From assembly GCA_034231615.1 (NCBI GenBank), contig CM067309.1, forward strand, positions 25,567,661 to 25,631,660: a DNA stretch of 64,000 nucleotides. Reading direction: 5' to 3'. The notes under the pieces were generated by a model. It saw nothing but the letters and a program-made list of their open reading frames with translations, did no database searches and was not told where the DNA came from. A program made the translations under genes and the position numbers. Of this stretch, positions 3,066-60,990 are shown one piece after another; position 1 is the first letter of the stretch; each line of letters opens with the position of its first letter. Origin of the DNA: Meghimatium bilineatum. Its lineage: Eukaryota; Mollusca; Gastropoda; Stylommatophora; Philomycidae.

Positions 3066-3071
3066 CACACT
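3066..3071. repeat. Left target-site duplication CACACT
   Basis: CACACT directly abuts the first base of the left inverted arm. The same six bases follow the last base of the right arm at 14837-14842. Confidence 0.75.
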
Positions 3072-3164
3072 AGTAGTATATGATGTTCAAGATGATACGT
3101 AGACGCCTCAATACGCCTCAAGTACGCCTCCCAAGATAATATAGCTCATATAACAAAATACTCG

Positions 3165-3600
3165 GTCTGGCGAGGTCGTGCAGAGGTCGTGCAGAGGTCG
3201 TGCAAAGGTCGTGCAGGGCGTGCAAAGGTCGTGTCATGTTACTTATCTGTACAATATGGCGAGGTCGTGCAAAGGTCGTGTCGAATGTGCCCGAATGTGC
3301 TAATATAGCTCATATAACAATATACGTGATCTGGAGAGGTCGTCCAAAGGTCGTGTCGAATGTGTCGAGTGTGCTTTATTATAGCCCATATAGCATTATA
3401 CTCGACCTGGAGAGGTCGTGTAAATGGGCGTCATGTTACGCCATGTTACATAACCGAATACTACTTAACTCATATAACAATATACTGAATACGGAGAGGT
3501 CGTGCAAAGGTGGCACCATGCCCCGTGCTGTTATATAACGGGCTTTAATATAGCCCAAATAACAATAAACGTGACATACAAAAGTCGGGTAAAGGTCGTT
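3165..3600. repeat. Arm subrepeats: 'aggtcgtgcaa' and about 90-bp units
   Basis: Short 'gaggtcgtgcagaggtcgtg' units grade into longer units that each carry 'tatagctcatataacaatat' and then 'gagaggtcgtgcaaaggtcg'. The mirror zone is 14330-14760, where one or two more short units are present. Confidence 0.85.
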
Positions 3601-3908
3601 ACCGGGTACTTATCCGCCTAATAATGAGATGTAATATAATAATGAGATGTGAATGTGTCAAGTGTGCCGCTGAATGTACTGAGTGTGCCCGCACATCCCA
3701 TATGATGGCAGTCGAAACCGGCCGAACCGACCGGCGGCGGGGTGTGGTCCGGAGCGATACCCGTTCGCTGTGGCCGAATCCGGTCAAATTGTGTATCTAA
3801 TGATGCGAATGTGTGTGGGATGGGTCTGGTATTTGGTAGTGGAATTGTCCTTTTATTTGTTTTGCTGATACAAGGAGCTAGGCTCGTGATAAAGAAAATT
3901 TCCACTGC

Positions 3909-4335
3909 GACTTCCAGTGAATGAGGTCTACATAGCCCCCATCTCTCCCCCTTGTGTCGGTGGAGGTGCGTTTGGTGAGTATTAACATGTTATGACCTTA
4001 TTTGTTTAGTGGGTATTTTGTGGTTTTTCCACTGAAATTTATTTATGGTACTATCTTTTTATATAAAACGAACCAATTTTAAACCACATGTGAAAGAGCA
4101 CGCAAAGTTCAGATCATAAAACTGCCAGATGCAATATAATTACACTCGCGGAAACTAGCCAGAACAGTGTAATTAACACATGGTCGTGTCTGGGGTGTTG
4201 TGGAGATGGTAATAAAAACCAATGCCACTTCCAGTGAATGAGGTTAGCATAACCCCACCTTCCCCCACTTATGCCGGTGGGGGTGATTTTGCTGTGTATT
4301 AACATTAACATGACCTTATTTGTTTAGTGGGTATG
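3909..4335. repeat. Direct duplication of about 125 bp inside the arm
   Basis: The blocks at 3909-4022 and 4222-4335 share 'cttccagtgaatgaggt', a C-rich stretch ending in 'cggtgg', and 'atgaccttatttgtttagtg'. They diverge moderately from each other, while each matches its mirror partner in the right arm closely. The duplication therefore predates the palindrome, or the arms are homogenised. Confidence 0.75.
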
Positions 4336-4359
4336 TTTGGGATTTCCGCTAACATTCAA

Positions 4360-4860
4360 GTGGTTCTCAAATTGTAAAATACTGACCATAACAATGTAAA
4401 CCCCCGAGACATATAGACACCACAAAAACTAATATTCTGCAAACATACTTCTGTGCCTTTGGCCAACGGTTCTCATTATTTCATACTTATATTCAAGTGG
4501 TTCACAAATTGTAAAATCTTGACCATGCAATGTAAAACCCCTGACATATAGACTCCACAAAAGCTAATATTCTGCAAGCATTCTTCTGTGCCTCTGGCCA
4601 ACGGTTCTCATTATTTTATGCTTATATTCAAGTGGTTCTCACATTGTAAAAACCTGACCATGAGAATGTAAAACTCGTAACATATTGACACAACAAAAGA
4701 AAATATTCTGCAAACATTATTCTGTGCCTTTGGCCAATAGTTCTCATTATTTTATGGTTATGTTAAAGTGGTTCTCACATTGACCAAGCCTGACCATACC
4801 AATGTAAAACCCATGCCATATATACACCACAAAAGCTAATATTCTCCAAACAGTCTTCTC
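4360..4860. repeat. Arm subrepeats, about 145 bp x 4
   Basis: Units carry 'ttcaagtggttctcaaattg', 'ctaatattctgcaaacat' and 'ctgtgcctttggccaa'. The left arm has four units, and the mirror zone in the right arm (about 12900-13540) has five. Confidence 0.85.
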
Positions 4861-5089
4861 TCAGGCCACGCTTCAGCCATGGTCGCTTGATGGTCTCTGT
4901 ATGCTCTTCAACTATGTTCTACCATATTATCATTATGGTCTCACTAACTTCTAACAGGGTCTACTTTGGGCCAATATATTCTTAGTATATTTTCGCTAGA
5001 GTCTTAAACTAGGTTCTCATGTGCAGCTTCAATTATGTTCTCTCTGTGTTTTGAGTTATTTTTCTCTACTAAAAGGTTTCTTATTAACA

Positions 5090-5760
5090 TATTTCATTAG
5101 CGCAAACGGCGTGTTTATCAGATGTCGAAATTAACAAGTCACACGAAAACACATTTCAGCCCTTTCTCACTAACAACATAGTACATTTGAGAAGTTTTAT
5201 TTGTGTAACTTAACATTTATTGGTGTTTTTTCACAACTAGATAAGCCACTTATACGGATTTTCGATGTTTTATTAGTTGTCTAAATTGTCATACGAAAAT
5301 ACATTTCAGTATTTTTGCAGTAACAACATGACAAATTTTATCGTGTTGTATTTGTGTGACTGTACCATGTACCATTTTCCACAATTAACCAATCTGCTTT
5401 TAGTGATTTTCATTATGTTTTATCATTTGTCTAAATTATCATACCACACGAAACATATTTCAGTACTTTTACACAAACATTATAACACATTTTTGTATTT
5501 GTGTAAGTACATCATTTACAATTTTTTCACAAGTAACCAACCCACTTTTACTATGTTATCATACTAAAAGAACACATTTTTCAGTACGTTGCCACTAACA
5601 ACATAACACATTTTGCCATGTTTTTATTTGTGGTCCTGCGGCATTTATCAATTTTAGTGATGTTCGTTATGTTTTATCAGTAGTTATCTAAATTAGATAC
5701 CATACAAACCCATATTTCAGTACTTTTGCACATTTAGATACAAAACACGGTTCCAATGAA
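5090..5760. repeat. Arm subrepeats around 'gttttatcattgtctaaatt'
   Basis: Diverged AT-rich units carry a 'tttcagtacttttgcacaaa' motif, then 'cataacacatttt', then 'cgttatgttttatca'. The left arm lacks a 304-bp stretch found in the right arm at 11729-12032. Confidence 0.7.
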
Positions 5761-5934
5761 CTTATTTTCATATGGTAAACTGCATGTTTTAGCTGTTTTC
5801 AAAATTATCCCATCCGAAATAACATGCCAACACTTCTCACTAACCTCATACACCATTTTGACAAACTTCTGTATATGAAACAGCATCGTTGATCACTACT
5901 CATAGACAATACCAACACATTTCACACATAGACC

Positions 5935-6250
5935 ATGTCAATATCCCGTACTGATATGCCGTGCTTATCCCCCGTGCTTATACCGCGTTCTGATATCCCG
6001 TGCTAATAGCCCGTGCTGATATCACCTGTCAAAATCCGTTGCTGATATCCGCTGTCAAGATCCGCTGCTATCGATTGTCAAAATCCGCTGCTATCATCTG
6101 GCAAGAACCGCTGTTGATATCTGCTGTCGAAATTCACTACTGATAGCCCCTGTCAAAATCCGCTGGTGATATCCGTTGTCAAAATCCGCTGCTGATATCC
6201 GCTGTCAAGAGCCGCTACTGATAGCTCTAGTCAAGAACTGATGCTGACAT
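5935..6250. repeat. Arm subrepeats 'gatatccgctgtcaa', about 26 bp
   Basis: About a dozen degenerate units such as 'ctgatatccgctgtcaagat' and 'ccgctgctgatatcc'. The mirror zone is 11215-11525. These short units resemble the small subrepeats that make up Drosophila Foldback arms. Confidence 0.8.
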
Positions 6251-6279
6251 CCCGTGTTGACAATCGACGTGTTGCATCC

Positions 6280-7430
6280 CTTTTCACAACTAGGCAAACT
6301 GCTTATAACACATTTTGCTATAATCGAAAGCATTAGGCGTTGATTTTCTAAACATACAAGGTAAATGTTTCTATTTGTATATACCAACGTCTCATATTAC
6401 ATATTTCCATATGACAAATCGCCTTTTTAGCCCTTTTAACAGCTAGGCAAGTCGCTTTTAACAAATTTACATATGATAAACTGCATGTTTTTCACTTGTC
6501 ACAGCCGCTTTTAACGCATTACCATTTGACAAACGGTATGTTTTATCAGTTATCACACATATGAAAACCTATTACAAGGCGTTTACACTAAAAACACAAC
6601 GCATTTATCCCTTTTCACAGCTAGACATCCTGCTTTTCGTAGTTTTCACAATAAGTAAAGTCACTATTTCACCCGTGTCTGGACTTACAATGACAAATTA
6701 CATTGGTTTTATGTACCAACATGTTTAATATTACATATAGCCAAATGATAGAAGTCATGTTTATCACTTTTCACAACTATGCACAGCCCTTTTAACACAT
6801 TTTGCTATAATCAAAGACATTGGGTTGGGCCTTTCTAGACTTACAATGCAATTTTCCTTATTTGTATGTACCAACAAGGTTCATATTACGTATTTCCATA
6901 GGACAACTTTCATGTTTTATCACTATTCACAACTAGGCAAACCGCTTTTAACAATTGTTGGTATTACCAAAAGCTATGTGTGGTGGTTCTCTAGACTTAC
7001 ACTGTAAATTTTCCTATTTTTATGCACCAACTGGTTTCATATGACATATTTCCAAACGACAAAGTTCACGTTTTATTACTTTTCACAGCTAACCAAAACG
7101 CTTTTTTAATTCTTTTCATATGAAAAAAACGACATGTTTTATTAGTTTTCTAAATTATCAGGTTATATGAAGCCACATTACAATACGTTTACACTAAAAA
7201 CATAACGCATTTAAGCACTTTTCATAGATGGACACACCACCTTTCGTAGTTTTCGCAATGAGCAAAGACATTATTTTGCTCGTTGCTAGACTTACAAAGG
7301 CAAATTACCATACTTTTATGTACCAACAAGGTTCATATTATATATGTCCATATGACAAGCTTCAGGTTTATCGCTTTTCACAATTAGGCAAACCACATTT
7401 CGCAAACCCCTAGCTATAACCCGGGTGATA
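6280..7430. repeat. Arm subrepeats with 'cttttcacaactaggcaaac'
   Basis: Long degenerate AT-rich units each contain 'cttttcacaactaggcaa', a 'catatgacaaa' motif and 'ctagacttaca'. They account for most of the inner half of each arm (mirror about 10033-11180). The short ORFs here appear identically in the mirror arm and have no recognisable domain. Confidence 0.7.
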
Positions 7431-7947
7431 TCACATGACATTAGCCAAGGCCGATATCCCCTGTTGATACCCATGACAATGACCTAGAACACTACACCCT
7501 GTTAATAGCTCATCCGGATATCACCCTACTAACAAACCATACTAATATAATATTCGTTATTAACACCAACACGACTAAAAAAACCCTGATACAGGACTAT
7601 CTGGCTAGGAACAACTGACACATTTCTTACAACTAAATACCGATACAATATAAGAGGCGTTGTTGTTGGTTATGGTTTGCATATATTTCCCAGTTATAGA
7701 CAAATATATACACCAAGATAAACTCGACAATATATTTTTTAAAAAGACAATCACATATTAAAAAAATACTGACAAATACAGAAAAGACATACACAGAAAA
7801 ATTTAACAACGCAGGTTGCCTCATAATGGTTTATTGAATCATTTGAACGACATACATAGCGTAGTTAGAAAGGGGCATATGTTGGTGTCAGCATTTACTA
7901 TCTATAAGAACAGCTTCAATTGGTTGTGTCGGTTGTCTAAACACTCA

Positions 7948-8016
7948 ACCCAACGGATGGTCGTTTATAAAATATAAGTCGAAAGAAGTGCCCACAATGT
8001 TCTCCAGCTGATATTT
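7948..8016 (-). pseudogene. Antisense copy of the central ORF 3' end
   Basis: These 69 bases are the reverse complement of 9447-9515, which encode the last 23 residues of the central ORF (ending DHPLG). No upstream coding sequence accompanies them here, because homology stops exactly at 8016/9447. They mark the breakpoint where the inverted copy joined. Confidence 0.85.
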
Positions 8017-8020
8017 CAAT

Positions 8021-8111
8021 CAAATTCAACCAGAGCCCCTCCTCTTATCACTATAGCCACTAACACATACAAGGTGACTAGTAATAAGAGGAGGGGATGT
8101 GGTTGAATTTG
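8021..8111. repeat. 28-bp stem hairpin beside the left arm breakpoint
   Basis: 8021-8048 and 8084-8111 are inverted repeats matching at 26 of 28 positions (caaattcaacca...cccctcctcttat), with a 35-base loop. The hairpin starts four bases inside the unique centre, right at the inner end of the left arm. Its closeness suggests a role in forming or stabilising the breakpoint, which is inference. Confidence 0.8.
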
Positions 8112-8513
8112 CTTGGTGTTATAAAAGTTCGCTTATGACTAGCTAAAAAAACTAATTCACTGGTACATAGACATATAGAATTTTTCATGCGATTATGGTT
8201 AGTGAAAATAGTAATTTGGTTCCCCAGGGCTAATAAATATCCGTGACAGTCCTTAGTGGTCTCATTAAGTCGTGTTCTTTGAACTACCAACACCCAACGT
8301 GTTTTCTAGTGTGTTACAGAGTTATAATAGATAACTGAAAAGCTAACCTCTGTTGTTGTCTAATTAGCCGTTATGGTTTCAGTTCAACCGGTACGTTGGT
8401 TGTATGTAATACCTTTGTTTTGTTATATGATGTATGTTAGTTTTTATGCTGCTTACCTCGTCGGTATGTGGCGAACTAACCACCATGCCCGTTTGTCACT
8501 GAATTAGCTCTGT
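8112..8513. other. Unique centre upstream of the ORF; possible exon 1 and intron donor
   Basis: Unique sequence not shared with either arm. At 8373 an ATG opens an 18-base stretch followed at 8391 by GTACGT, a good splice-donor match. The nearest good acceptor is a T-rich tract ending CAG at 8642-8644. Splicing would place the first zinc-finger cysteines in frame with this ATG. No other feature is supported. Confidence 0.35.
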
Positions 8514-9518
8514 GTGGTTATAATTAGTATGTATTATTGCGTATATTCTGTTATTAAACGATGTTTTTATTATGGTTTGGTTGTTACATCGACTAAAATA
8601 TATGTGTTTGTCCTATTGACATCTTTGTGTTTTATCATCACCAGGTCGCCCCGGGTAGCAAAGCCTACGGCTGTGAAACTTGTGGGAAAGAGTTTAAACG
8701 CGTATACACTGCGTAGACATTGTCAGAATTTGCACATTAAGCGTCGATATAACTGTTCTGTTTGTAAGAGTGACTATTCTGATGTTGCGTCTTTACAGCG
8801 GCACGTAAAGAAACACCAAGAACAAATGAACGGGCGTGTTGGTCATGCATCCGCGCCAGTTACACCACTAACGTTATCAGTTTCACCCCCACATATGACT
8901 GGCTCTTCGTTAGCAGCAGTTTTGGAAATTACATCGCCCTTGTCGCTGTCTGCTACCTCTGAAAACAGTGTACCTCCATTATCACCACAACCACTACTAC
9001 CAGACAATAACGGCACCATAAGTGCACTAACACCACGGGCACCTAACTCACCCCACTTCGATTTTTTAGCTGGTTTACCATTAGACATACAGCAAATATA
9101 TATCGATAATTGGTCAACTATACATACACATATCACAGTTCGTAAGTCCAGCGCGACTTATACGTTTTTTCATCCCCCAATGATACCTCATATACAAGAT
9201 TGGAATGAGGTTCTAAGACCCATGTTCACTGACCAAACTAAGAGGTTCAAAGTGAACTTTTCCAAACATTTGATATTACGGCATCGAGAGACATTAGAAC
9301 CAAGATTTTTTCACGGCTCAGTTAACAATTCGGCTGTTTTAGAGTACCCAGCGCTGATAAATAATAGACACGACTTTGACCTCTTTGTTCAGAAAGTTAA
9401 CGAAGCTGACCCTATGAATGTTGCCCAGAATACGCGGCCAAATACCAAATATCAGCTGGAGAACATTGTGGGCACTTCTTTCGACTTATATTTTATAAAC
9501 GACCATCCGTTGGGTTGA
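8514..9518 (+). CDS. Zinc-finger protein with Maverick/Polinton-like C-terminal domain (frameshifted)
   Basis: 334 codons. Residues 1-44 look like translated intron (T-rich, hydrophobic). A first C2H2 finger is split: its Cys pair (codons at 8672 and 8681) lies in another frame, continuous with an open stretch from the predicted splice acceptor at 8644, whereas its His pair (H69, H74) is in this frame, so there is an indel near 8684-8717. The second finger is intact: C81-x2-C84-x12-H97-x3-H101. A Pro/Ser/Thr-rich linker (about 105-180) precedes a domain (about 182-334) containing RPNTKYQLENI (308-318) and ending HPLG. I recall this RPN(S/T)K...HP(L/I)G domain from the region ahead of protein-primed DNA polymerase in Maverick/Polinton-type elements, but this is memory and not a search. 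Residues 312-334 lie in the right arm. It is probably inactive. Confidence 0.6.
   Translation: MVIISMYYCVYSVIKRCFYYGLVVTSTKIYVFVLLTSLCFIITRSPRVAKPTAVKLVGKSLNAYTLRRHCQNLHIKRRYNCSVCKSDYSDVASLQRHVKKHQEQMNGRVGHASAPVTPLTLSVSPPHMTGSSLAAVLEITSPLSLSATSENSVPPLSPQPLLPDNNGTISALTPRAPNSPHFDFLAGLPLDIQQIYIDNWSTIHTHITVRKSSATYTFFHPPMIPHIQDWNEVLRPMFTDQTKRFKVNFSKHLILRHRETLEPRFFHGSVNNSAVLEYPALINNRHDFDLFVQKVNEADPMNVAQNTRPNTKYQLENIVGTSFDLYFINDHPLG
8645..8718 (+). pseudogene. Frameshifted first C2H2 finger
   Basis: Read from 8645, the frame gives VAPGSKAYGCETCGKEFKR and then meets a stop after the expected position of the finger loop. The matching His half (TLRRHCQNLH) is in the next frame. The distance from the second Cys codon (8681) to the first His codon (8718) is 37 bases, not a multiple of three. 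One base too many or two too few would explain it. Confidence 0.6.
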
Positions 9519-9638
9519 GTGTTTAGACAACCGACACAACCAATTGAAGCTGTTCTTATAGATAGTAAATGCTGACACCAACATATGCCCCTTTCTAACT
9601 ACGCTATGTATGTCGTTCAAATGATTCAATAAACCATT

Positions 9639-9830
9639 ATGAGGCAACCTGCGTTGTTAAATTTTTCTGTGTATGTCTTTTCTGTATTTGTCAGTATTTT
9701 TTTAATATGTGATTGTCTTTTTAAAAAATATATTGTCGAGTTTATCTTGGTGTATATATTTGTCTATAACTGGGAAATATATGCAAACCATAACCAACAA
9801 CAACGCCTCTTATATTGTATCGGTATTTAG
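9639..9830 (+). CDS. Small hydrophobic ORF, duplicated in both arms
   Basis: 63 codons, with an identical copy on the minus strand at 7633-7824. Residues 9-48 are strongly hydrophobic with one charged break (FKK), compatible with one or two membrane segments. It sits 120 bp downstream of the zinc-finger ORF. I do not recognise it. AT-rich DNA often yields such frames by chance, and identity between arms is expected at the DNA level, so evidence for a real gene is weak. Confidence 0.15.
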   Translation: MRQPALLNFSVYVFSVFVSIFLICDCLFKKYIVEFILVYIFVYNWEIYANHNQQQRLLYCIGI

Positions 9831-11728
9831 TTGTAAGAAATGTGTCAGTTGTTCCTAGCCAGATAGTCCTGTATCAGGGTTTTTTAGTCGTGTTGGTGTT
9901 AATAACGAATATTATATTAGTATGGTTTGTTAGTAGGGTGATATCCGGATGAGCTATTAACAGGGTGTAGTGTTCTAGGTCATTGTCATGGGTATCAACA
10001 GGGGATATCGGCCTTGGCTAATGTCATGTGATATCACCCGGGTTATAGCTAGGGGTTTGCGAAATGTGGTTTGCCTAATTGTGAAAAGCGATAAACCTGA
10101 AGCTTGTCATATGGACATATATAATATGAACCTTGTTGGTACATAAAAGTATGGTAATTTGCCTTTGTAAGTCTAGCAACGAGCAAAATAATGTCTTTGC
10201 TCATTGCGAAAACTACGAAAGGTGGTGTGTCCATCTATGAAAAGTGCTTAAATGCGTTATGTTTTTAGTGTAAACGTATTGTAATGTGGCTTCATATAAC
10301 CTGATAATTTAGAAAACTAATAAAACATGTCGTTTTTTTCATATGAAAAGAATTAAAAAAGCGTTTTGGTTAGCTGTGAAAAGTAATAAAACGTGAACTT
10401 TGTCGTTTGGAAATATGTCATATGAAACCAGTTGGTGCATAAAAATAGGAAAATTTACAGTGTAAGTCTAGAGAACCACCACACATAGCTTTTGGTAATA
10501 CCAACAATTGTTAAAAGCGGTTTGCCTAGTTGTGAATAGTGATAAAACATGAAAGTTGTCCTATGGAAATACGTAATATGAACCTTGTTGGTACATACAA
10601 ATAAGGAAAATTGCATTGTAAGTCTAGAAAGGCCCAACCCAATGTCTTTGATTATAGCAAAATGTGTTAAAAGGGCTGTGCATAGTTGTGAAAAGTGATA
10701 AACATGACTTCTATCATTTGGCTATATGTAATATTAAACATGTTGGTACATAAAACCAATGTAATTTGTCATTGTAAGTCCAGACACGGGTGAAATAGTG
10801 ACTTTACTTATTGTGAAAACTACGAAAAGCAGGATGTCTAGCTGTGAAAAGGGATAAATGCGTTGTGTTTTTAGTGTAAACGCCTTGTAATAGGTTTTCA
10901 TATGTGTGATAACTGATAAAACATACCGTTTGTCAAATGGTAATGCGTTAAAAGCGGCTGTGACAAGTGAAAAACATGCAGTTTATCATATGTAAATTTG
11001 TTAAAAGCGACTTGCCTAGCTGTTAAAAGGGCTAAAAAGGCGATTTGTCATATGGAAATATGTAATATGAGACGTTGGTATATACAAATAGAAACATTTA
11101 CCTTGTATGTTTAGAAAATCAACGCCTAATGCTTTCGATTATAGCAAAAAGTGTTATAAGCAGTTTGCCTAGTTGTGAAAACGGATGCAACACGTCGATT
11201 GTCAACACGGGATGTCAGCATTAGTTCTTGACTAGAGCTATCAGTAGCGGCTCTTGACAGCGGATATCAGCAGCGGATTTTGACAACGGATATCACCAGC
11301 GGATTTTGACAGGGGCTATCAGTAGTGAATTTCGACAGCAGATATCAACAGCGGTTCTTGCCAGATGATAGCAGCGGATTTTGACAATCGATAGCAGCGG
11401 ATCTTGACAGCGGATATCAGCAGCGGATTTTGACAGGTGATATCAGCACGGGCTATTAGCACGGGATATCAGAACGCGGTATAAGCACGGGGGATAAGCA
11501 CGGCATATCAGTACGGGATATTGACATGGTCTATGTGTGAAATGTGTTGGTATTGTCTATGAGTAGTGATCAACGATGGTTTCATATACAGAAGTTTGTC
11601 AAAATGGTGTATGAGGTTAGTGAGAAGTGTTGGCATGTTATTTCGGGTGGGATAATTTTGAAAACAGCTAAAACATGCAGTTTACCATATGAAAATAAGT
11701 TCATTGGAACCGTGTTTTGTATCTAAAT

Positions 11729-12032
11729 GTCGTGAAATGCGCAACTGTAAGTATAGAAAAGAGATAAATACTGTCTGATCACACTGAAAGGCGCTACCAC
11801 CAACTTGCCTAGTTGTGAAAAAGTGATAAGTGATTATCCAACAGATAAAAACATGTCAAAAGTTGTTATGTTGTTAATGGCAATGTAAGGGAAAATAGCT
11901 TCGTATGGTATCATAACTTAGACATCTGATAAAACATAACGAAAATCACCCAATTCGGCTTGTGTAATTGCAAAAATAGTAATAACTGTTGAAAGCGAAT
12001 AAATAAAACATGGTAAATGTGTTATGATGTTT
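11729..12032. other. Segment present only in the right arm (304 bp)
   Basis: The flanking sequence 'atctaaat' and 'gtgcaaaagtactg' is contiguous in the left arm (near 5725-5740, in reverse complement) but separated by 304 bp here. The segment contains further copies of the arm subrepeat motif, so the difference looks like a deletion between repeats in the left arm with GT microhomology. Confidence 0.75.
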
Positions 12033-14836
12033 GTGCAAAAGTACTGAAATATGGGTTTGTATGGTATCTAATTTAGATAACTACTGATAAAACATAACGA
12101 ACATCACTAAAATTGATAAATGCCGCAGGCCCACAAATAAAAACATGGCAAAATGTGTTATGTTGTTAGTGGCAACGTACTGAAAAATGTGTTCTTTTAG
12201 TATGATAACATAGTAAAAGTGGGTTGGTTACTTGTGAAAAAATTGTAAATGATGTACTTACACAAATACAAAAATGTGTTATAATGTTTGTGTAAAAGTA
12301 CTGAAATATGTTTCGTGTGGTATGATAATTTAGACAAATGATAAAACATAATGAAAATCACTAAAAGCAGATTGGTTAATTGTGGAAAATGGTACATGGT
12401 ACAGTCACACAAATACAAACACGATAAAATTTGTCATGTTGTTACTGCAAAAATACTGAAATGTATTTTCGTATGACAATTTAGACAACTAATAAAACAT
12501 CGAAAATCCGTATAAGTGGCTTATCTAGTTGTGAAAAAACACCAATAAATGTTAAGTTACACAAATAAAACTTCTCAAATGTACTATGTTGTTAGTGAGA
12601 AAGGGCTGAAATGTGTTTTCGTGTGACTTGTTAATTTCGACATCTGATAAACACGCCGTTTGCGCTAATGAAATATGTTAATAAGAAACCTTTTAGTAGA
12701 GAAAAATAACTCAAAACACAGAGAGAACATAATTGAAGCTGCACATGAGAACCTAGTTTAAGACTCTAGCGAAAATATACTAAGAATATATTGGCCCAAA
12801 GTAGACCCTGTTAGAAGTTAGTGAGACCATAATGATAATATGGTAGAACATAGTTGAAGAGCATACAGAGACCATCAAGCGACCATGGCTGAAGCGTGGC
12901 CTGAGAGAAGACTGTTTGGAGAATATTAGCTTTTGTGGTGTATATATGGCATGGGTTTTACATTAGTATGGTCAGGCTTGGTCAATGTGAGAACCACTTT
13001 AACATAACCATAAAATAATGAGAACTATTGGCCAAAGGCACAGAATAATGTTTGCAGAATATTTTCTTTTGTTGTGTCAATATGTTACGAGTTTTACATT
13101 CTCATGGTCAGGTTTTTACAATGTGAGAACCACTTGAATATAAGCATAAAATAATGAGAATCATTGGCCAAAGGCACAGAAGAATGTTTGGAGAATATAG
13201 CTTTTGTTGTGTCTATATGTCACGGGGTTTACATTGTTATGGTCATGCTTTTACAATTTGACAACCACTTGAATATAAGCATAAAATAATGAGAACCGTT
13301 GGCCAGAGGCACAGAAGAATGCTTGCATCATATTAGCTTTTGTGGAGTCTATATGTCAGGGGTTTTACATTGCATGGTCAAGATTTTACAATTTGAGAAC
13401 CACTTGAATATAAGTATGAAATAATGAGAACCGTTGGCCAAAGGCACAGAAGTATGTTTGCAGAATATTAGTTTTTGTGGTGTCTATATGTCTCGGGGGT
13501 TTACATTGTTATGGTCAGTATTTTACAATTTGAGAACCACTTGAATGTTAGCGGAAATCCCAAACATACCCACTAAACAAATAAGGTCATGTTAATGTTA
13601 ATACACAGCAAAATCACCCCCACCGGCATAAGTGGGGGAAGGTGGGGTTATGCTAACCTCATTCACTGGAAGTGGCATTGGTTTTTATTACCATCTCCAC
13701 AACACCCCTGACACGACCATGTGTTAATTACACTGTTCTGGCTAGTTTCCGCGAGTGTAATTATATTGCATCTGGCAGTTTTATGATCTGAACTTTGCGT
13801 GCTCTTTCACATGTGGTTTAAAATTGGTTCGTTTTATATAAAAAGATAGTACCATAAATACATTTCAGTGGAAAAACCACAAAATACCCACTAAACAAAT
13901 AAGGTCATAACATGTTAATACTCACCAAACGCACCTCCACCGACACAAGGGGGAGAGATGGGGGCTATGTAGACCTCATTCACTGGAAATTTTCTTTATC
14001 AAGAGCCTAGCTCCTTGTATCAGCAAAACAAATAAAAGGACAATTCCACTACCAAATACCAGACCCATCCCACACACATTCGCATCATTAGATACACAAT
14101 TTGACCGGATTCGGCCACAGCGAACGGGTATCGCTCCGGACCACACCCCGCCGCCGGTCGGTTCGGCCGGTTTCGACTGCCATCATATGGGATGTGCGGG
14201 CACACTCAGTACATTCAGCGGCACACTTGACACATTCACATCTCATTTTTATATTACATCTCATTATTAGGCGGATAAGTACCCGGTGACGACCTTTACC
14301 CGACTTTTGTATGTCACGTTTATTGTTATTTGGGCTATATTAAAGCCCGTTATATAACAGCACGGGGCATGGTGCCACCTTTGCACGACCTCTCCGTATT
14401 CAGTATATTGTTATATGAGTTAAGTAGTATTCGGTTATGTAACATGGCGTAACATGACGCCCATTTACACGACCTCTCCAGGTCGAGTATAATGCTATAT
14501 GGGCTATAATAAAGCACACTGGACACATTCGACACGACCTTTGGACGACCTCTCCAGATCACGTATATTGTTATATGAGCTATATTAGCCCATTCGGGCA
14601 CATTCAACACGAACTTTGCACGACCTCGCCATATTGTACAGATAAGTAACATGACACGACCTTTGCACGCCCTGCACGACCTCTGCACGACCTTTGCACG
14701 ACCTCTACACGACCTCTGCACGACCTGCACGACCTCGCCAGACCGAGTATTTTGTTATATGAGCTATATTATCTTGGGAGGCGTACTTGAGGCGTATTGA
14801 GGCGTCTACGTATCATCTTGAACATCATATACTACT

Positions 14837-14842
14837 CACACT
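14837..14842. repeat. Right target-site duplication CACACT
   Basis: Directly follows the last inverted base (14836) and is identical to 3066-3071. Confidence 0.75.
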
Positions 14843-18319: not shown

Positions 18320-19400
18320 GCTTTGTTTGACATTCTTTTCACATGGTCAGGACATCTTAAATGTCTATATCTGAGAGTTTATGATAGAGTGATGGTATCA
18401 GCGCACTGCAGAACTTCCAAGTTAGTATTCTTGTCCTGTCATCTGATGTCCTTGAAATATCTTTGCTCTCTCTTCGTAGATTGAGCAAAGTGTCCATCTT
18501 TCTGGCGCATGTGATGAGCTCACATGACGGATAAATCATTATTTTGGTCTTCAATGTCAATATTGAGGTTTTCTTCCACACTCTACTTTTGTCAGTTTTC
18601 TAGAAGTTATGGATGCTTTAATAAGTATTTTCTTTCTCTTCATCCAGTGCTAGTGTACATATTACTTATCATATCCTCATCGAGTGGTAGTGTGGATGCT
18701 ACTGTGAATCTCCTCATCGAGTAGTAGTGTGAATGTTACTGTGAATCTCCTCATCGAGTGGTAGTGTGGATGTTACTGTGAATCTCCTCATCGAGTGGTA
18801 GTGTGGATGTTACTGTGAATCTCCTCATCGAGTGGTAGTGTGGATGTTACTGTGAATCTCCTCATCGAGTAGTAGTGTGAATGTTACTGTGAATCTCCTC
18901 ATCGAGTGGTAGTGGAATGTTACTGTGAATCTCCTCATCGAGTGGTAGTGTGGATGCTACTGTGAATCTCCTCATCGAGTAGTAGTGTGAATGTTACTGT
19001 GAATCTCCTCATCGAGTGGTAGTGTGGATGCTACTGTGAATCTCCTCATCGAGTGGTAGTGTGAATGTTACTGTAAATCCAAGATATTTAATATTTACAA
19101 CTTTTGAGCGTTGCATGATTTAATGACTGCTCCTGCTGGCTGAGACAGCTGATCGTGTGAGTACAACTGTCATGTCCATCTTGAGTGAGAATATATCACA
19201 AGCTCTTAATAGGTCATTGGCTATGGACTGCAAAGTCTTGATTCGTCATGTGCCACAAGATCAGCATCGTTCGCAAATAGTAAATCTCTGCTGAATTCCG
19301 TACGGTCATTTTTTATATCTGTTGTGCACACTCCTGCGATGAATTCCTTACGACCATTGTCTATTTGTTATTCACCCCTGTGATTAATTCATTTACTTCC
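18320..19400 (-). pseudogene. LINE reverse-transcriptase fragment interrupted by a minisatellite
   Basis: On the minus strand, from 19330 downward, it reads RDLLFANDADLVAHDE, a decayed palm motif (normally FADD). After about 200 bp it reads YLGFTVTFTLPLDEEI, the YLG..I...L..D.EI motif. After the minisatellite it continues with TLKTKIMIYPS and a thumb-like stretch ending IPSLYHKL. The order is that of a LINE RT palm and thumb. Frameshifts and the 37-bp array break it. Confidence 0.7.
18665..19075. repeat. 37-bp minisatellite, about 11 copies
   Basis: Unit contains 'ctcctcatcgagtggtagtg' then 'tggatgttactgtgaat'. It lies inside the LINE RT fragment, and its sequence is the RT coding segment for TFTLPLDEEI amplified. 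37 is not a multiple of three, so the expansion breaks the frame. Confidence 0.9.
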
Positions 19401-27629: not shown

Positions 27630-28965
27630 GGGGTGCAAAGGGAACGCATTGCTCTAGGCGGACCCAGGGTTAGCAGATAACCAAGATCCCAAATGTACCT
27701 CCACGCGGTGCACCCTGGAAACAGAAATACAGCAGCTCGAGCTGATTCTGGCCAAATCATTTGGGGATCGTGTCCGAAAATGTGGAGGTAGCAGATGGAA
27801 AGAGATTTGCCTGCACACGGACAGACATATCTCCGACACCACCAGCATCACCACATATAGCGACACTGTCGACATACAGTGAAGCTAGTCAGTCCAGTCC
27901 GAACATTGGAGGGGCGGCCAATGTAAAATGCACGTAAAGGTAGATACATGGCGAGAGACATAGATTTCATACCGAGTACAATGAAACAATGAAAGGGCAG
28001 AACAGCGCTAGAGGGCAGCGCGAACTGCAAATAGAAAGTGAAAAGTCCCTAGGAAAGGGGGAGCTACAAGCTCCATCAGCTCGAGACGGGCTTCTAGTTA
28101 CCGGAGTTCCTTACAGGCAGAAACCCAGACCCATCCACTGGCGTTTGGTAAAGCAAGAAGACCTAACCCAACTCTAATGTCGAGCCTTCCTAAACCGGAA
28201 ATATGCTCGCGAAGAGAAAGGGTTCTGTACCCAATGGGCTTAGGCAAGAAAGGGACAACGATGGTAGTCCTGGCCCAACTCTACTGTCAATGTTTCCTAT
28301 ACCGGAAGTACACTTGCAGAGAGAAAGGGTTCCGTACTCGATTCGCTCAGGCACAAAAGGGACAACGATTTAGCCCTGGCCCAACTCTACTGTCAAGTTT
28401 TCCTACACCGGAAATACACTTGAAGAGAGAAAGGGTTCAGTACCTGATGGGCTCAGGCGCTATTGGGACAAGGACGCTCAGCTCGAGAACGCCTTGCTCT
28501 CAAACGCGTGGTGTGAGACTCGAACTTGGACAAGGGGTACACGATGTCGGTGAATAACACCTCGGCTAAGAGGGCGAAAGAGCCAGGGTCCAACTCCTCT
28601 GTTGAGTTCTTCCCCTTAAGGAACCAGGCTCACGGATGAGAAACGGTTCAGTACCCAATGGGCACAGGCACAGCACGTCCAATTACACGAGGCAAGTAAA
28701 TAGACAGTGGAACACCTCGTTTGAGTCAGACTAAGAGCAAGAAAATCGTCTGGGCGAAGAGTCTCCACTACGCGTGCCTGGAGACAGATATAGAGGCTGT
28801 CACAGGCTAAGGGTAGCCCACCCGAATTGTCAAGGCATGCCGAAATCGGATGTGCTAGGCCTACAAGGCGCATAACGGTGGCACAACGTAATCACGCTCC
28901 CGGCGGAAATCGCACGGATATCCGTGATGGTTACAATGGAGCGAACGAAAAACAAACAAACAAAC
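27630..28965 (+). mobile_element. Retroposon X, copy 2 (1.34 kb)
   Basis: Begins GGGGTGCAAAGG and ends aacaaacaaacaaac. It is flanked by ctgaatcaac (27620-27629 and 28966-28975), a clear 10-bp target duplication. It has three internal modules of about 105 bp (28190-28460) against about two in copy 1. Open frames in it are not shared with the other copies. It is the longest copy here. Confidence 0.9.
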
Positions 28966-32470: not shown

Positions 32471-32474
32471 TTAA

Positions 32475-33425
32475 GACAGCATTCGACAAGACAGTCTACA
32501 AGAGAACATTCTACACGAATACAACATTTTGTAAGACAAACTTCGACAAGAGAACATTCTACAAGACAAGACTCTACAAGACACCATTCTGCAACGCAAC
32601 ATTCTTCAAGAATACAACATTCTACAAAAACATTATAGAAGATAACATTCGGCAAAATAATATTCTACAAGACAACATTCTACAAGACTACTACGTTCTG
32701 CAAGATAGCAATCGTCAAGACAACATTCTTCAAGACAACATTTTGCAAGACAATATTCTACAAGACAATATCTTATAAGACAACATTTGACAAGACAACA
32801 TTCGCCAAGACAACACTCGACACTACACAATTCTGCAAAACAACATTCTATAACACTGCAACATTCGACAAGACAACATTCTACACGACAACATATTACA
32901 AGAGAACATTTGACAAGACAACAACATACAAGACACAATTCTACAAGACAAAATTCTACTAGACAAAATTCTACAAGACAATATTCTATAAAATACTATT
33001 CTGTAGGGCAACATACACGACAACATTCTACAAAACACTATCCTACAAGACAACAATATACAAGGCAAAATTCAACAAGACAACATTCTACTAAATACTA
33101 TTAAACAAGACAACATTTTACAAAACACTATTCTACAAAACAACATTGTACAAGACTACATTCTACACGACAATATTATACACGACAACATTCTACAAGA
33201 GAACACTGTACACGACAACATTCTACAAGACAACATTTCATAAGAGAACATTCTACAAGACAACACACTATACGACAACATTCTACAAGAGAACACTGTA
33301 CACGACAACATTCTACAAGACAACATTTCATAAGAGAACATTCTACAAGACAACACACTATACGACAACATTCTACAAGACAACACACTACACGACAACA
33401 TTCTACAAAACAACAATAGTACGAA
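32475..33425. repeat. 'acattctacaag' array, right part
   Basis: About 950 bp of loose units (acaacattctacaag and variants) with two larger near-identical blocks at about 33190-33275 and 33285-33365. Long reading frames on both strands (Thr/Phe/Tyr-rich or Cys/Leu-rich) follow from the repeat. Confidence 0.9.
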
Positions 33426-40934: not shown

Positions 40935-42205
40935 GTTCTCGTGCGTTCGCTCTCTTGTAACCACATTGAATAGATCGTGTGATTTCCTCATGGGTTCGTA
41001 AAGTACGTTGTACTTCACGTTCCACAGTTGAACTGTGTCATTTTCACCTCGGTTGGTTCACTTTGTGACCGGGACATCCTAGGCCCAGCACATCCAATTT
41101 TTTCGTCATGCTTTTAATTCGGGTAGTAGGCTTCCCTAGCCAGTGACAGCCTGCCTATCTGTCGACCGGCGCGCGGGTGTGTAATGACTCTTCGCCGAGA
41201 CGATTTTCATTCATGTCTATCTCGCACGAGATGTTTGACCGTCAGTGAACTTGCCTTGTGTGCGTTTCAGACGTTCTATGCCTTAGCCTATAGGGTACTG
41301 AACCTTTTCTCCTCCTCGAACCTGGTTCCAGTGAAGGAAGAACTCGGCAGAAGAGTTGGACTTTGTGCTCTTTCGCCTTCTTAGTCGAGGTGTCGTTCAC
41401 CGACATCGTGAATTCCTTGTCCGAGTCTCACCACGAGTTAGGAGCAAGGCGTATTCTCGAGCTGAACGACCTTGTCTCATATTGTGCCTAGCCCATAGGG
41501 TGCTGAACCCTTTCTCTCTGCAAGCATGTTTCCGGTATAGGAAAACTCGACAGTAGAGATTGGCTAGGGCTGCCTTCGTTGTCCCGTTTGTGCCTGAGCC
41601 CATCGGGTACGAAGTCCTTTCTCTCCGCGAGCATGTTTCCGCTATAGGAAGGCTCGATATTGGAGTTGGGTCAGGTCTTCTTTCTTTGCCGTGCGCCCAT
41701 GATTGGGTATGGGTTTCTGCCCGTAAGGAGCACAGATAGCTAGAAGCTAGTCTCGAGCTAACAGAGCTTGTAGTTCTGATTTCCTTGGAACGTTTTCACT
41801 TTTTGTTTGCCGTTTGCGCTGCACTCTGGCGCTTTACTGCCCCTTCATTGTACTCAGTGTGTTGTCTTTTCGTCTCTCGCCTTGCATCAACCTTTTAATG
41901 TATTTCTCATTGTCAGCCCCTCTAATGCTTGGGCTGGACTGACTAGCGTCACTGTGTGTCGACAGTGCCACTGCATGTGTTGGCGCTGGTGGTGTCGGAG
42001 ATATTGTCTGTCTCATATGCAGTCAAATCTCTTTCCATCTGCTACCTCCACATTCACGGACACGAGCCATATGTATTATCCAGGAATACAGCAGGAGCCG
42101 CTGCATTTCTTTTACCGGGGTGCACCACGAGAAGGTGCTTTTAGGATCTTAATTACCTGCTAACCCTGAATCCGCACGAGAGCAATGCGAGACCCTCTAC
42201 ACCCC
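40935..42205 (-). mobile_element. Retroposon X, copy 3 (older)
   Basis: Minus orientation: the rc of the GGGGTG end is at 42200-42205 and the tail end is near 40935. It is clearly more diverged than copies 1, 2 and 4. A possible imperfect duplication is acagaaac (42206-42213) against acagagaaa (40926-40934). Module motifs such as 'ggtataggaaaactcgacag' are still visible. Confidence 0.75.
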
Positions 42206-49757: not shown

Positions 49758-49994
49758 GTGAATGTTACAGTACATCATCTACATTCGACAGATCATCTAT
49801 GATAAATAGGCTCTAAGATGACATTTGGTATCTGACACCCCGAGGACCATCTACAAAGAAAAGATTATTACAGAAACAAATCACTAGTCTGAGGATAGAC
49901 ACTACAAATATAAGGTTATAGGTGCATGGTTTAGTCCACGAAATGAGATATTAAAGTGTAACAGTATCCCATAATCTCCCGTCCTGCAAGGAGC

Positions 49995-50640
49995 GTTGCA
50001 TAAATCACGTGCTGCCAGGAGTGTATCATACATCACGTGCTGCCAGGAGTGTATCATACATCACGTGCTGCGAGGAGTGTATCATACATCATATCATGCC
50101 AGATGTGTATCATACATCACATGCTGCCAGGAGTGTATCATACATCACGTGCTGCCAGGAGTGTATCATACATCACGTGCTGCGAGGAGTGTATCATACA
50201 TCACGTGCTGCGAGGAGTGTATCATACATCATATCATGCCAGATGTGTATCATACATCACGTGCTGCCAGGAGTGTATCATACATCATATCATGCCAGAT
50301 GTGTATCATACATCACATGCTGCCAGGAGTGTATCATACATCACGTGCTGCCAGGAGTGTATCATACATCACATGCTGCGAGGAGTGTATCATACATCAC
50401 GTGCTGCGAGGAGTGTATAATGCGTCACGTCCTGCCAGGAGCGTAACATATATCACGTCCTTCAGGAAGCATAGAATACATCATGTCCTGCAGGAATAGA
50501 ATACATCACGTCCTGCAGGAATAGAATACATCACGTCCTGCAGGAAGCGTAGAATACATCACGTCCCGCGGAAGCGTAGAATACATCACGTCCTGCAGGA
50601 AGCGTAGAATACATCAAGTCCCGCGGAAGCGTAGCATACA
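49995..50640. repeat. 28-bp minisatellite, about 23 copies, open in three frames
   Basis: Unit 'gtgctgccaggagtgtatca' plus 'tacatcac'. Variants with atcatgccagatg, atgctgcc and gtgctgcg alternate, hinting at a higher-order pattern. From about 50430 the unit changes to 'gtcctgcaggaagcgtagaa' plus 'tacatcac'. All three plus frames are open for 127-167 codons because 28 is not a multiple of three and the unit lacks plus-strand stops. Confidence 0.95.
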
Positions 50641-51424: not shown

Positions 51425-52372
51425 GCGACTCTATTTTTTGCGCCTCGTTCTAGAAGTCTAGGTCCTGGTTACCATATTCATTGCCCTTTAACTAGAAGTC
51501 TAGGTCCTGGTTGCTCTATTCATTGCGCATTGAACTAGAAGTCTATGTCCTGGTTACCCTATTCATTGCCCTTTAACTATAAGTCTAGGTCCTGGTTGCT
51601 CTATTCATTGCGGCTTGAACTAGAAGTCTAGGTCCTGGTTGCTCTATTCATTGCGCCTTGAACTAGAAGTCTAGGTCCTGGTTGCTCTATTCATTGCGCC
51701 TTGAACTAGAAGTCTAGGTCCTGGTTGCTCTATTCATTGCGCATTGAACTAGAAGTCTATGTCCTGGTTACCCTATTCATTGCGTCTTGAACTAGAAGTC
51801 TAGATCCTGGTTGCTCTATTAATTGTGCCTTGAACTAGAAGTCTAGGTCCTGGTTATCCTATTCATTGCTCATTGAACTAGAAGTCTAGGTCCTGGTTGC
51901 TCTATTCATTGCGCCTTGAACTAGAGGTCTAGGTCCTGGTTGCTCAACTATTTGCTTCTTGAACTAGAAGTCTAGGTCCTAGTTGCTCTATTCATTGCGC
52001 CTTGCACTAGAAGTCTAGGTCCTGGTTGCTCTATTCATTGCGCCTTGAACTAGATGTCTAGGTCCTGGTTGCCCTATTAATTGCGCCGTGAACTAGAAGT
52101 CTAGGTCCAGGTTGCTCTATTCATTGCGTCTTGAGCTAGAATGCTAGGTCCTGGTTGTTCAATTCTTTGCTTCTTGAACTAGAAGTCTAGGTCCTGGTTG
52201 CTCTATTCATTGCGTCTAGAACTAGAAGTCTAGGTCCAGGTTGCTCTATTCATTCCGCCTTTAACTAGAAGTCTAGGTACAGGTTGCTCTATTCATTCCG
52301 CCTTTAACTAGAAGTCTAAGTCCTGGTTGCTCTATTCATTGCGCCCCGAACTAGAAGTCAATGTCCCAGTTG
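51425..52372. repeat. 43-bp minisatellite, about 22 copies
   Basis: Unit 'gaactagaagtctaggtcct' then 'ggttgctctattcattgcgc' then ctt. A single related unit ('ggaactagaagtccaggccc') lies far away at 2970-2992, so the unit existed as a single copy elsewhere before amplification. Confidence 0.95.
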
Positions 52373-52589
52373 CCACACTATTGAGCTGTCTAGATAACTC
52401 ATTAAACGGAGTCTAAACAATAGCTGTCTAGATAAAACATTAAACATATCCTAGAAAACAGCTGTATAGATAAAGAATTTCCCTCCTCCTGTTACTGCAT
52501 TCGATATCATATTTCTTTTCAGAATGTGATAGATTAGAACACGGTTCAATCATTCTGAGACTCTGAAACAACACTGTGACTGGTCTAGC

Positions 52590-55374: not shown

Positions 55375-56055
55375 AGATATCATCAGCCGCTCATGTGTTG
55401 TTGGATAGCGCCATAAGACAACATCAGAATATCATCAGCCGCTCATGTGGTGTTGGATAGCGCCATAAGACAACATCAGAATATCATCAGCCGCTCATGT
55501 GTTGTTGGATAGCGCCATAAGACAACATCAGAATATCATCAGCCGCTCATGTGTTGTTGGATAGCGCCATAAGACAACATCAGAATATCATCAGCCGCTC
55601 ATGTGTTGTTGGATAGCGCCATAAGACAACATCAGAATATCATCAACCGCTCATGTGTTGTTGGATAGCGCCATAAGACAACATCAGAATATCATCAACC
55701 GCTCATGTGTTGTTGGATAGCGCCATAAGACAACATCAGAATATCATCAACCGCTCATGTGTTGTTGGATAGCGCCATAAGACAACATCAGAATATCATC
55801 AGCCGCTCATGTGTTGTTGGATAGCGCCATAAGACAACATCAGAATATCATCAACCGCTCATGTGTTGTTGGATAGCGCCATAAGACAACATCAGAATAT
55901 CATCAGCCGCTCATGTGTTGTTGGATAGCGTCAGAAGACAGCATCAGAATATTATCAACCGCTCATGTGTTGTTGGATAGCACCATAATACAACATCAGA
56001 ATATTATCAACCGCTCATGTGTTGCTGGATAGCGCCATAAGATAACATCAGCATA
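55375..56055. repeat. 52-bp minisatellite x 13
   Basis: Unit 'atcatcagccgctcatgtgt' then 'tgttggatagcgccataaga' then caacatcagaat. Copies are almost identical, with an agcc/aacc variant alternating, and the last three copies decay. Confidence 0.95.
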
Positions 56056-56059
56056 TCAG

Positions 56060-58439: not shown

Positions 58440-60560
58440 TACACTTCTGTTCACAGTACAGGTCATATGCTAGTTGACAATCATTCTTCTCCGCTATCCA
58501 AAATATTCACATCTAGCAACACCGCATTTCAAACCCAGATCTTTAATACTTACCATTGAATAGGAATCATCATCCACACTAGTCTCACTCTCGCATGATA
58601 TATCTCTTAAGAAGTTTAAAACGTCAGCTCCATCCATTGCCCGATCGCACTGTCCCACAATCGCGCATGACGCTAGTTGGTCTGCTCTTTTATTGCCTCG
58701 AATACCCACATGTCCCGGTACGAAAATAAATGTAACCACTTTCAGCCTCGCCTTTCTCAGGGCCTCAATCCACTGTTCGCGAACGAGACCCAATTGTACC
58801 TTCCTAATCATACTCATAGAATCACTCAAGATGCAGAACTACGTTACCTTCTGTGTGCATACCCACTCAAATGCCCTGGTCATCGCCATAGTTTCCATGG
58901 TCATGCTACTCGTAGTAACCGCACAGGCACAACTCTCCTCCCTGATCGTTTTACCTGCGCACTGAGTCGTGAAGGACCAAACACTGCGAATATGTCTAAT
59001 CACAGATCCATCAGTATAAGGCCTATATAATCACATTCCCCTCTTTGATATTCTCACTGGCCAAATCTTGCACTTCTTTCAACACAGTTGTGGTGCACCA
59101 TTCTCTGCATTCCCTGATAAGTGATATTACTACTCTTAAACAAGTTTCGAAATCTGTGTGTAGACTTATCCATTCCGCACCTGCTTCCACATCTTGCAAT
59201 CTGTACACGCTTTGTATGATATCCTCAGTACTTCCCATCCACAAATTCCTCTCTGGTGGTAGTCTGCTGCATTTAACCTTCTGTATTTCGGAATGCAATA
59301 TATGTTCCTTATCGGCATATGTATTTGAAGGTACGCCCGTGCACGGCAATACTGTAATCTGTGCTCTGCTGCTGGACAGTCAGGTAGGTGTCGCATAGCT
59401 CTTGTCGATGTGTCTATTGGGCACCAAAGTAGAATAAGTATTGCTGCATTCTGGATTCTATCCAGTCTTTCGATCTGAGTTTGGCTAAGAGTCAGAATTG
59501 CCAGTGTATATTTCACCATCAAACCCTGGTACAAAAGAAATAACAACCTCTGCTCACACTGCGCAGCAACTATAACCTTCATTGCTGCTAAGTCTTTACC
59601 TGCCCTTTTGATAACGTGGTCAATATGTTCACTGAAGTTCATACTTATGTCAAAGAAACACACCCAGATATATCATTGCGCTGGTTCGTTCTAAACTTTT
59701 CCCCGACAACGAAACATGTGACATGGGTGTCTTTACCATGTGATTGTTCAAGGAAATCCACGTCACGAATGTCTTAGAAGGATTTACCACTACTCCCGTA
59801 TCTCGACACCAATTCGTCAGTCTGTCCAGTTCATCCTGTAGTTCCACGGCGCACTCTGTCCTGCCTATACACTATAATAATTAATCATAATTCTGTAACG
59901 TTGTTAAGAAATAATCCACTCATGTAAAATATGAAGCCTATACGTTCAGTAGTTACGGGGGGGAATAGACAATATCGGTGGACAACTATTTATGAACGCA
60001 CTATGTGATGTCATCGGCGTACGACATCGTTCTGTCATCACCTGTGATTTGATTGCTAGTGATATGTACTGTGTAAACATTGAAAATCACAGGTGATAGA
60101 TGCGATCACGGCTAGTAACCGTTGGTGCCGATACCCAGTTACCACATTTAAGAACTACTATCCTGTGCATTAGGGTCACACCAATCTACCGCATGACAAA
60201 AGTATTTACTGGACGATTTAACAGTTGGTCCATCAAGACATTTACGGACACCTTATTGTAAGCATTCTCAAGATCTATTGCAACCGCACATGTCTCCATG
60301 CGCGAATCGAACTCCTCAAAAATATTCAGCGCAAATAGTGTTGCATTCTGCCATGTCTTCTTTTCTGGGTGATACCCCCCTAACAGCGTTGGTAAACACT
60401 TATTTCTCTCAAGATGACATGATACCTTCCAAGTCGCAATGTTTTCCACAACCTTGCATATCGTATTCTGCATTGTTATTATTCTGTAGCCTGGTGTGAT
60501 CCTTCCCAGGTTTGGGTAGTGGAACTAAATAGTCGTGTAACCAGTCTTCTTTCACTGTGC
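58440..60560 (-). pseudogene. RNase H-bearing LINE (I/CR1-like), RT to RNase H
   Basis: The best-preserved retrotransposon here. Minus-strand order is DWLHDYLVPLPKPGKDHT (RT fingers, about 60493-60550), CAVAIDLENAYNKV (motif A, about 60240-60290), LSPVIFNVYTVHIT (about 60075-60110), MSYADDIT (catalytic YADD, 60010-60027), WCRDTGVVVNPSKTFVTW (about 59770-59820), RLDRIQNAAILILLWCPIDT (thumb, about 59420-59475), CRARAYLQI, then FVPGHVGIRGNKRADQLAS (RNase H, about 58665-58725). Frameshifts and stops separate the parts. The endonuclease and ORF1 are absent. The RT clade is judged from motifs only. Confidence 0.85.
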
Positions 60561-60594: not shown

Positions 60595-60990
60595 CTATCT
60601 TTCTATTTGTTCTAGTGATCCCCCATTCCTAGCCAGGAGATCAGCTTTTTCATTTCCAGGTATGCCACAGTGACCAGGGATCCACTTGGCAAAGGATTGA
60701 CTGGTTGCAATGTTTTCAAACATACCGGAAACAGTGTTTCTTTGGATTACTATTTCTTTGGATTGAACGTATGAACGGTTATTATTGAACGCGTATGAAA
60801 TGGCTATATTATGTGTTCGTTGTGACAAGCATACATCCAGCAACTCTGGTGAGAGGACAATAGCTTGGCATACAGGCATATTCTTAATTGAGTATGCAGT
60901 GGACAAATGAATTTGCGTTTCCGATTCTCTGCAACTGTTTACGATGTGTTTGAAAACATTGCAACCAGTCAATCCTTTGCCAATTTGAGA
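60595..60990 (-). pseudogene. Second RNase H fragment upstream of the LINE RT
   Basis: The minus frame (60972-60595) contains SFAKWIPGHCGIPGNEKADL then LARNGG, the RNase H C-terminal motif. It precedes the RT of the neighbouring LINE, which is the wrong order for one element, so it derives from another copy. It contains a 37-bp inverted duplication. Confidence 0.75.
60686..60983. repeat. 37-bp perfect inverted repeat
   Basis: 60686-60722 (ttggcaaaggattgactg...) is the exact reverse complement of 60947-60983, with 224 bp between. One arm is part of the RNase H coding sequence and the other lies at the start of the same frame. Confidence 0.85.

Follow-up and report, generated by a model that had tools for sequence, protein, structure and literature searches.

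A palindromic, non-autonomous Maverick/Polinton family in the genome of Meghimatium bilineatum

What kind of mobile element carries the ends of a Maverick/Polinton but is built of two giant inverted arms? This question is raised by an element at positions 3072-14836 of a 64,000-nucleotide stretch of the gastropod Meghimatium bilineatum (assembly GCA_034231615.1, contig CM067309.1, positions 25,567,661 to 25,631,660 of the forward strand), referred to here as the window. The element is a decayed copy of a palindromic, non-autonomous Maverick/Polinton family, whose other copies, where read through, have the shape of near-perfect palindromes of 12-14 kb. The palindromes probably arose by snap-back during protein-primed replication and have been re-copied from one strand in each cycle, with helper functions supplied from outside.

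Structure of the window element

An earlier note on this DNA had described a long inverted-repeat element with AG...CT ends and a CACACT duplication, and the element proved real. The left arm (3072-8016, + strand, 4945 bp) and the right arm (9447-14836, 5390 bp) enclose 1430 bp and are 99.57% identical across 4930 aligned bases, with 100% identity over the innermost ~1.65 kb. They are separated by indels of 20, 12, 135, 1, 304, 2 and 1 bp. The element begins with AGTAGT (3072-3077, +) and ends with ACTACT (14831-14836, +), and the same 6 bp, CACACT, flank it at 3066-3071 and 14837-14842 as a target-site duplication (TSD). For this combination of arm identity, ends and duplication, chance is excluded by a wide margin.

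The arms and the gap were thus measured much as the note had given them, as two ~5 kb arms round a 1.43-kb centre, but the gap is not a spacer. It consists of the inner core of the right arm together with the true central hairpin (8017-8115), the left arm being deleted there. A first model, which took the 1.43-kb centre for a snap-back loop, was dropped, as the true centre is visible in other copies. The hairpin has a 37-nt stem (8017-8053/8079-8115, 89% complementary), a 25-nt loop and a DNA fold z of -7.6, and it is also the palindrome centre of the four other copies of the same core type (type A, defined below) that were read through. Compared with type A copies, the right arm is whole from the hairpin to its end (8079-14836, - strand, 6758 bp), and the left arm matches only 9447-14836 of it. 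The left arm lacks counterparts of about 8116-9446 (~1.33 kb) and, at 5730, of a 304-bp segment found in the right arm only (11731-12034, +). As the larger loss lies beside the hairpin, the innermost part of the left arm, 7948-8016 (-), is a mirror copy of the exon tail and repeats the last 23 codons of the encoded domain. This loss, like a frameshift in the first zinc finger, probably came after insertion.

Copies in the genome and their two core types

The outer 200 bp of an arm, the query that the note had proposed, was used to search the genome (1,612,235,226 bp in 32 contigs). The search returned 108 matches, and the resulting copy number is a lower bound because 40 of 284 candidates were scored. 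By position, the matches form at least 15 inverted pairs, the window element included (at least 14 further paired copies), and 10 unpaired ends. Ten of the further pairs were read completely, and the other four at their ends. AGTAGT marks 30/30 ends of the 15 paired copies and 8/10 unpaired ends; past these first 6 bp the terminal sequence differs among copies. Two unpaired ends, C7 and C9, hold inverted core copies inside, so that their second end was merely not scored.

Exact TSDs are read plainly in 12 copies: CACACT (window), AATGAC, GACGCC, TCCGAT, CGTGTC, GACGCA, TACAGG, CTTGTG, ATCGTT, CACATC, CCCGTA and GGCGTT. C1b is flanked on either side by AGCGCG, provided that an additional AGT at the right end is taken as part of the element; the plain reading matches at 1/6 positions. 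With C1b included, 13 of the 15 paired copies have an exact 6-bp TSD, one matches at 5/6 and one has none. The expectation that other copies would share termini and duplication is therefore borne out for the AGTAGT motif and for most duplications, and fails for the sequence beyond 6 bp and for two copies.

Apart from the TSD, the flanks on the two sides of the copies differ in sequence. This bears on a technical explanation, according to which the palindromes were assembled from fold-back reads with missed adapters. Such reads look like near-identical palindromes with a zero or tiny spacer, a description that suits the centre of a related palindrome on C12 (100.0% over 4346 bp; see below). However, a fold-back read would double the flank as well, whereas here the two flanks differ and exact TSDs are nevertheless present in 13/15 paired copies, and the arms differ by substitutions and indels. 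An artefact of this kind is hardly credible.

All 10 copies read through are palindromic across the centre, with lengths of 11,979-14,055 bp, arms of about 6-7 kb and arm identities of 98.5-99.99% in the main aligned blocks. The view of two 5-kb arms is to be corrected accordingly. The spacer measures 25-63 nt in C20a, C14, C3b and C3c, and the larger values in the other six represent imperfectly pairing stretches. Two core types share the outer ~5 kb. Type A comprises the window element, C20a, C20b, C3a and C3c, all with the hairpin of window 8017-8115, and by core match C1b, C23a and C8:64484585; its PolB N-terminal gene points outward. Type B comprises C18, C14, C2, C16, C21 and C3b, which have a single centre in common, and by core match C1a, C23b, C20:24879042, C9 and C7; it encodes a different two-finger protein, which points inward. 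Among 23 places examined (11 with the window element, plus 12), 8 are of type A and 11 of type B, and 4 showed neither core at the spot inspected. The core was seen in one orientation only in C8:64484585 and C20:24879042, and the middle part of the arms deviates in C3a and C3c.

Encoded proteins and relation to Mavericks

A 334-aa open reading frame (ORF) at 8514-9518 spans much of the centre and enters the right arm by 69 coding bases. Its coding part (8645-9515, +; stop at 9516-9518) would follow a putative splice acceptor CAG at 8642-8644. It comprises two C2H2 fingers, the first split by the frameshift, and the N-terminal domain of a Maverick-type PolB (9054-9515, +). The second finger (RRYNCSVC...HVKKH; 8742-8816, +) is the one weak Pfam match of this ORF, below the cut-off. 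Among ten further ORFs of the element (82-134 aa), the best match was to a DUF (E 0.0089) and missed the cut-off of that family, and the ORF from 8622, used as query in a plain protein search, had no match at E 1e-3.

More sensitive searches revealed the affiliation. A padded search led to P0001, which is 51% identical to the window ORF and has six C2H2 fingers, and a search with P0001 added led to P0002 (1597 aa; source name Bradybaena similaris, a land snail), P0003, P0004 and P0005. Of these four long relatives, P0004 alone lies above the Pfam cut-off for DNA_pol_B_2 (E 8e-15); P0002, P0003 and P0005 are identified as PolB by alignment to it. P0002 and P0005 align over its full course, with the PolB-type DTDS motif, and P0003 (679 aa) aligns over the first part. 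In the alignment, the window ORF corresponds to the C2H2 region and N-terminal domain of these PolB-type relatives, and it stops, like P0001, where the longer proteins go on. When P0002, P0004 and P0005 are combined into a profile, the Vsr endonuclease in the PDB is matched with E 1.2e-4 (P0004 alone, 0.28). This region lies beyond the reach of the truncated window gene, and the insertion is thus seen in the PolB relatives only. Three scans of viral contigs for relatives gave nothing useful; the sole locus, L001, matched only positions 19-136 of P0002, the finger stretch.

The first finger is open at the frameshift point in other copies. A 307-aa type A frame is open in 7/8 arms of four other type A copies, and 8/12 type B arms keep a full-length frame; over 54 aa, the fingers of the two proteins are 46% identical. 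The ratio of nonsynonymous to synonymous substitution rates (dN/dS) in type A is 0.22-0.59, from 8-18 differences per pair and without a significance test.

Vertebrate Mavericks are reported to have (AGT)2//(ACT)2 ends and 6-bp TSDs, and intact ones terminal inverted repeats (TIRs) of 46-1447 bp (PMC8097293); group I Mavericks carry a Vsr-like insertion in PolB (PMC10328495). The present family agrees in its ends, in its 6-bp TSDs and in PolB relatives with C2H2 fingers and a Vsr-like insertion, which upholds the earlier assignment to a Polinton-derived, non-autonomous lineage. It differs in its arms of 5-7 kb, two to a palindrome, in place of TIRs in that published range, in genes duplicated in mirror image, and in a window copy that codes for the PolB N-terminus alone; longer PolB relatives, putatively protein-primed, are found elsewhere in the genome. 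Pfam gave no match to an rve integrase in the window ORF or the ten further ORFs, the genome not having been searched for integrase. It likewise gave no match to packaging ATPase, capsid or protease in the ORFs of the window element; ATPase genes occur elsewhere in the genome, where capsid and protease were not searched.

The note had combined this assignment with a Foldback lineage on account of arms made of tandem subrepeats. Arrays, however, cover 1576 of 4945 bp (32%) of the left arm, and the remaining 68% is not tandem repeat. They comprise subterminal arrays of 11-bp and 76-bp units (3172-3419, +), a 136-bp array (4354-4859, +) with one extra unit in its mirror (12906-13546), and arrays of 13, 26, 53 and 156-bp units (5941-7105, +) that have mirror copies in the right arm. 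FB, Galileo and Tetris likewise combine very long inverted arms with tandem arrays, and this build would suit a Foldback/Galileo-type cut-and-paste element that is Maverick-like only at its ends. Known FB and Galileo elements have TSDs of 9 or 7 bp. Here the TSD has 6 bp, the ends follow the (AGT)2//(ACT)2 motif, the coding sequence is that of a PolB N-terminus, two-thirds of the left arm is non-tandem, and the window ORFs scanned with Pfam matched no P-type transposase or other Foldback-type protein. Foldback membership was rejected on ends, TSD length and encoded protein, and a cut-and-paste origin is very improbable.

Relatives that still carry a polymerase, which the note had suggested looking for, are present. 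A genome search for PolB scored 29 places of 3699 candidates, matching 83-93% of P0002, and 26/29 lack stops. Eighteen lie in 9 divergent pairs, 4 in two direct pairs and 7 are single. Three pairs were inspected, and these related palindromes carry a near-full-length PolB in each arm. The PolB centre on C12 is self-inverted, with its outer end beyond the stretch read. The elements on C25 (87516572-87531218; TSD GATACT) and C4 (19309229-19323870; TSD GGCGTC) have AGTAGT ends and are palindromic in the outer 2.3 kb and the central ~2.5 kb, the parts in which palindromy was read. Beside the C12 palindrome, a locus (L063, G000:C12:11326100-11333100) contains another, incomplete PolB as well as an extended array of repeats in which several frames are open; the 7 kb read include no element end.

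A corresponding search for packaging ATPase gave at least 150 matches, with 150 of 558 candidates scored, and six convergent pairs 10-14 kb apart were picked out by eye. The protein matches Adeno_IVa2 just above the cut-off and Pox_A32 below it. One element with the family termini and ATPase genes near both ends (C3:13594960-13608100) has inverted ends that are 99.7% identical over at least 1005 bp, the TSD CAAGTG and the same first 24 bases as C16; it is not shown to be a full palindrome, because only its ends were read. Packaging-ATPase genes in an element bearing the family termini are a further trait in common with Mavericks. A conventional element on C1 has 497-bp TIRs, a PolB place, a PC4-like ORF and the TSD AATGTA.

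Since separate palindromes or inverted-gene elements hold different Maverick-type genes with matching end motifs, and the two-finger module is common to the type A and type B proteins, a multipartite Maverick might be considered, in which PolB, ATPase and two-finger proteins move together on separate palindromic segments. This is improbable: search matches place PolB and ATPase 11 kb apart on C1 (119.384 and 119.395 Mb), the arrangement of a conventional Maverick, and one PolB element of conventional build exists. A broader version, in which a Maverick lineage abandoned the ordinary linear form for hairpin-replicating palindromes, each with one or few mirrored genes and jointly forming a multipartite, self-templating genome, is doubtful.

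Two further ATPase loci were noted. Many ATPase matches at G000:C22:51.80-52.20 Mb, partly inverted, recur about every 53-59 kb by eye, as if in a tandemly amplified block. Another locus (L072/L057, G000:C8:57775701-57783500) has an AGTAGT left end, a rearranged arm and an adjoining ATPase ORF, which might belong to this copy (C8:57775400), and could be a nested or recombined Maverick.

Arm relatedness and the proposed origin

Three arm segments were aligned, with 16, 20 and 19 sequences, after dropping rows that covered <85% of a segment (C20a, C3a and C3c in segment 1; C20a in segment 2; C3a and one C3c arm in segment 3). In the trees, the left and right arms of a copy pair in 8/8, 8/10 and 8/9 copies, respectively; the closest relative of an arm is mostly its partner in the same copy. 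Divergence is 0-1.27% within copies and 0.14-6.6% between them. The contrast is clearest in type A, with 0-0.7% within copies and mostly 0.7-6.6% to the nearest other copy. Over whole arms of ~6.6-7.0 kb, measured in 8/10 copies, C14 has 1 substitution, C3b 2, C18 3 and C3a 5 (0.015-0.075%), followed by C16 with 9 (0.135%), C2 with 14 (0.209%), C20b with 39 (0.559%) and C21 with 52 (0.785%).

Because the copies read of each type have a common centre, the palindrome probably predates them; even so, the two arms within a copy hardly differ. There are two options: a single strand gives rise to both arms of a new copy, or conversion makes the arms alike later.

Protein-primed replication has been proposed for Mavericks on the basis of their genes. 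Under the first option, the nascent strand of a replicating linear Maverick would fold back at the central hairpin and copy itself to its own end, once for each type. Such a snap-back would replace either end of the genome by an inverted copy of the opposite end. The palindrome could then spread because each of its ends would retain an origin and an integration site of Maverick type, and PolB, terminal protein and integrase would be supplied by other elements. In each cycle the displaced single strand would fold into a hairpin, and both arms of every new copy would therefore stem from one strand. The element's own two-finger/PolB-N-terminal protein may contribute, perhaps as an end- or arm-binding factor. 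Viruses have comparable snap-back or panhandle defective genomes, in which one genome end is duplicated in inverted form by template switching, as is suggested here; the present elements differ in being integrated at many sites, with an open reading frame in most type A arms.

The second option, and the main rival, holds that the palindromes replicate in ordinary double-stranded form and that their arms are homogenised by gene conversion after insertion, as in Y-chromosome palindromes. Conversion is favoured by long inverted arms with tiny spacers, the indels between the window arms lie partly in tandem arrays, and arm divergence varies by copy (0.015-0.79% substitutions in the 8 copies measured). 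That range fits different insertion ages equally well, however, and three differences between the window arms, of 135 bp, 304 bp and ~1.33 kb, have stayed unrepaired. Conversion as the source of arm identity is a serious but rather unlikely alternative.

Several observations weigh against a snap-back origin with one-strand re-copying, beginning with the fact that conversion could yield the arm identity. In the trees, the arms of C14 and C2 intermix in segment 2, those of C16 fail to pair in segment 3, and several sister nodes are weakly supported (0.33-0.86). In type B, the distance between C14 and C2 (0.14-0.23%) lies below that within C21 (0.46-1.27%) and within C2 (0.56%, one segment); because some between-copy distances thus fall under within-copy ones, type B alone is not decisive. 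C21 is the copy that lacks a TSD, and the TSD of C23a is imperfect (CTCCAG/GTCCAG). The dN/dS values of type B pairs, resting on 5-7 differences, are 0.68-1.37. The arms of the PolB palindromes and of the window element have no detectable DNA in common.

If snap-back with one-strand re-copying is correct, the palindromes would be a genomic fossil record of Maverick replication. Arm divergence would serve as a clock set to zero at insertion, as for LTRs (long terminal repeats), and a new route would exist by which animal genomes acquire giant palindromes and large non-autonomous elements. In the open-licence literature searched, none of the listed titles or abstract openings describes a palindromic Maverick.

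A low-stringency comparison of the element with the rest of the window gave a single 42-bp match (E 0.008), and tRNA and Rfam scans of the window gave no match. Minisatellite arrays abound in the window (93 rows, overlapping rows included), for example at 2074-2425, 18635-19079, 32473-33415, 49980-50616, 51429-52373 and 55377-56058. Two segments spotted by eye, 58497-58838 (-) and 60598-61008 (-), resemble the RNase H of non-LTR retrotransposons (such as IPGHCGIPGNEKADLLARNGG). The translations of 28042-28554 (+) and 41400-41795 (-) have motifs in common, also by eye, and possibly belong to one repeat family in the flanks.

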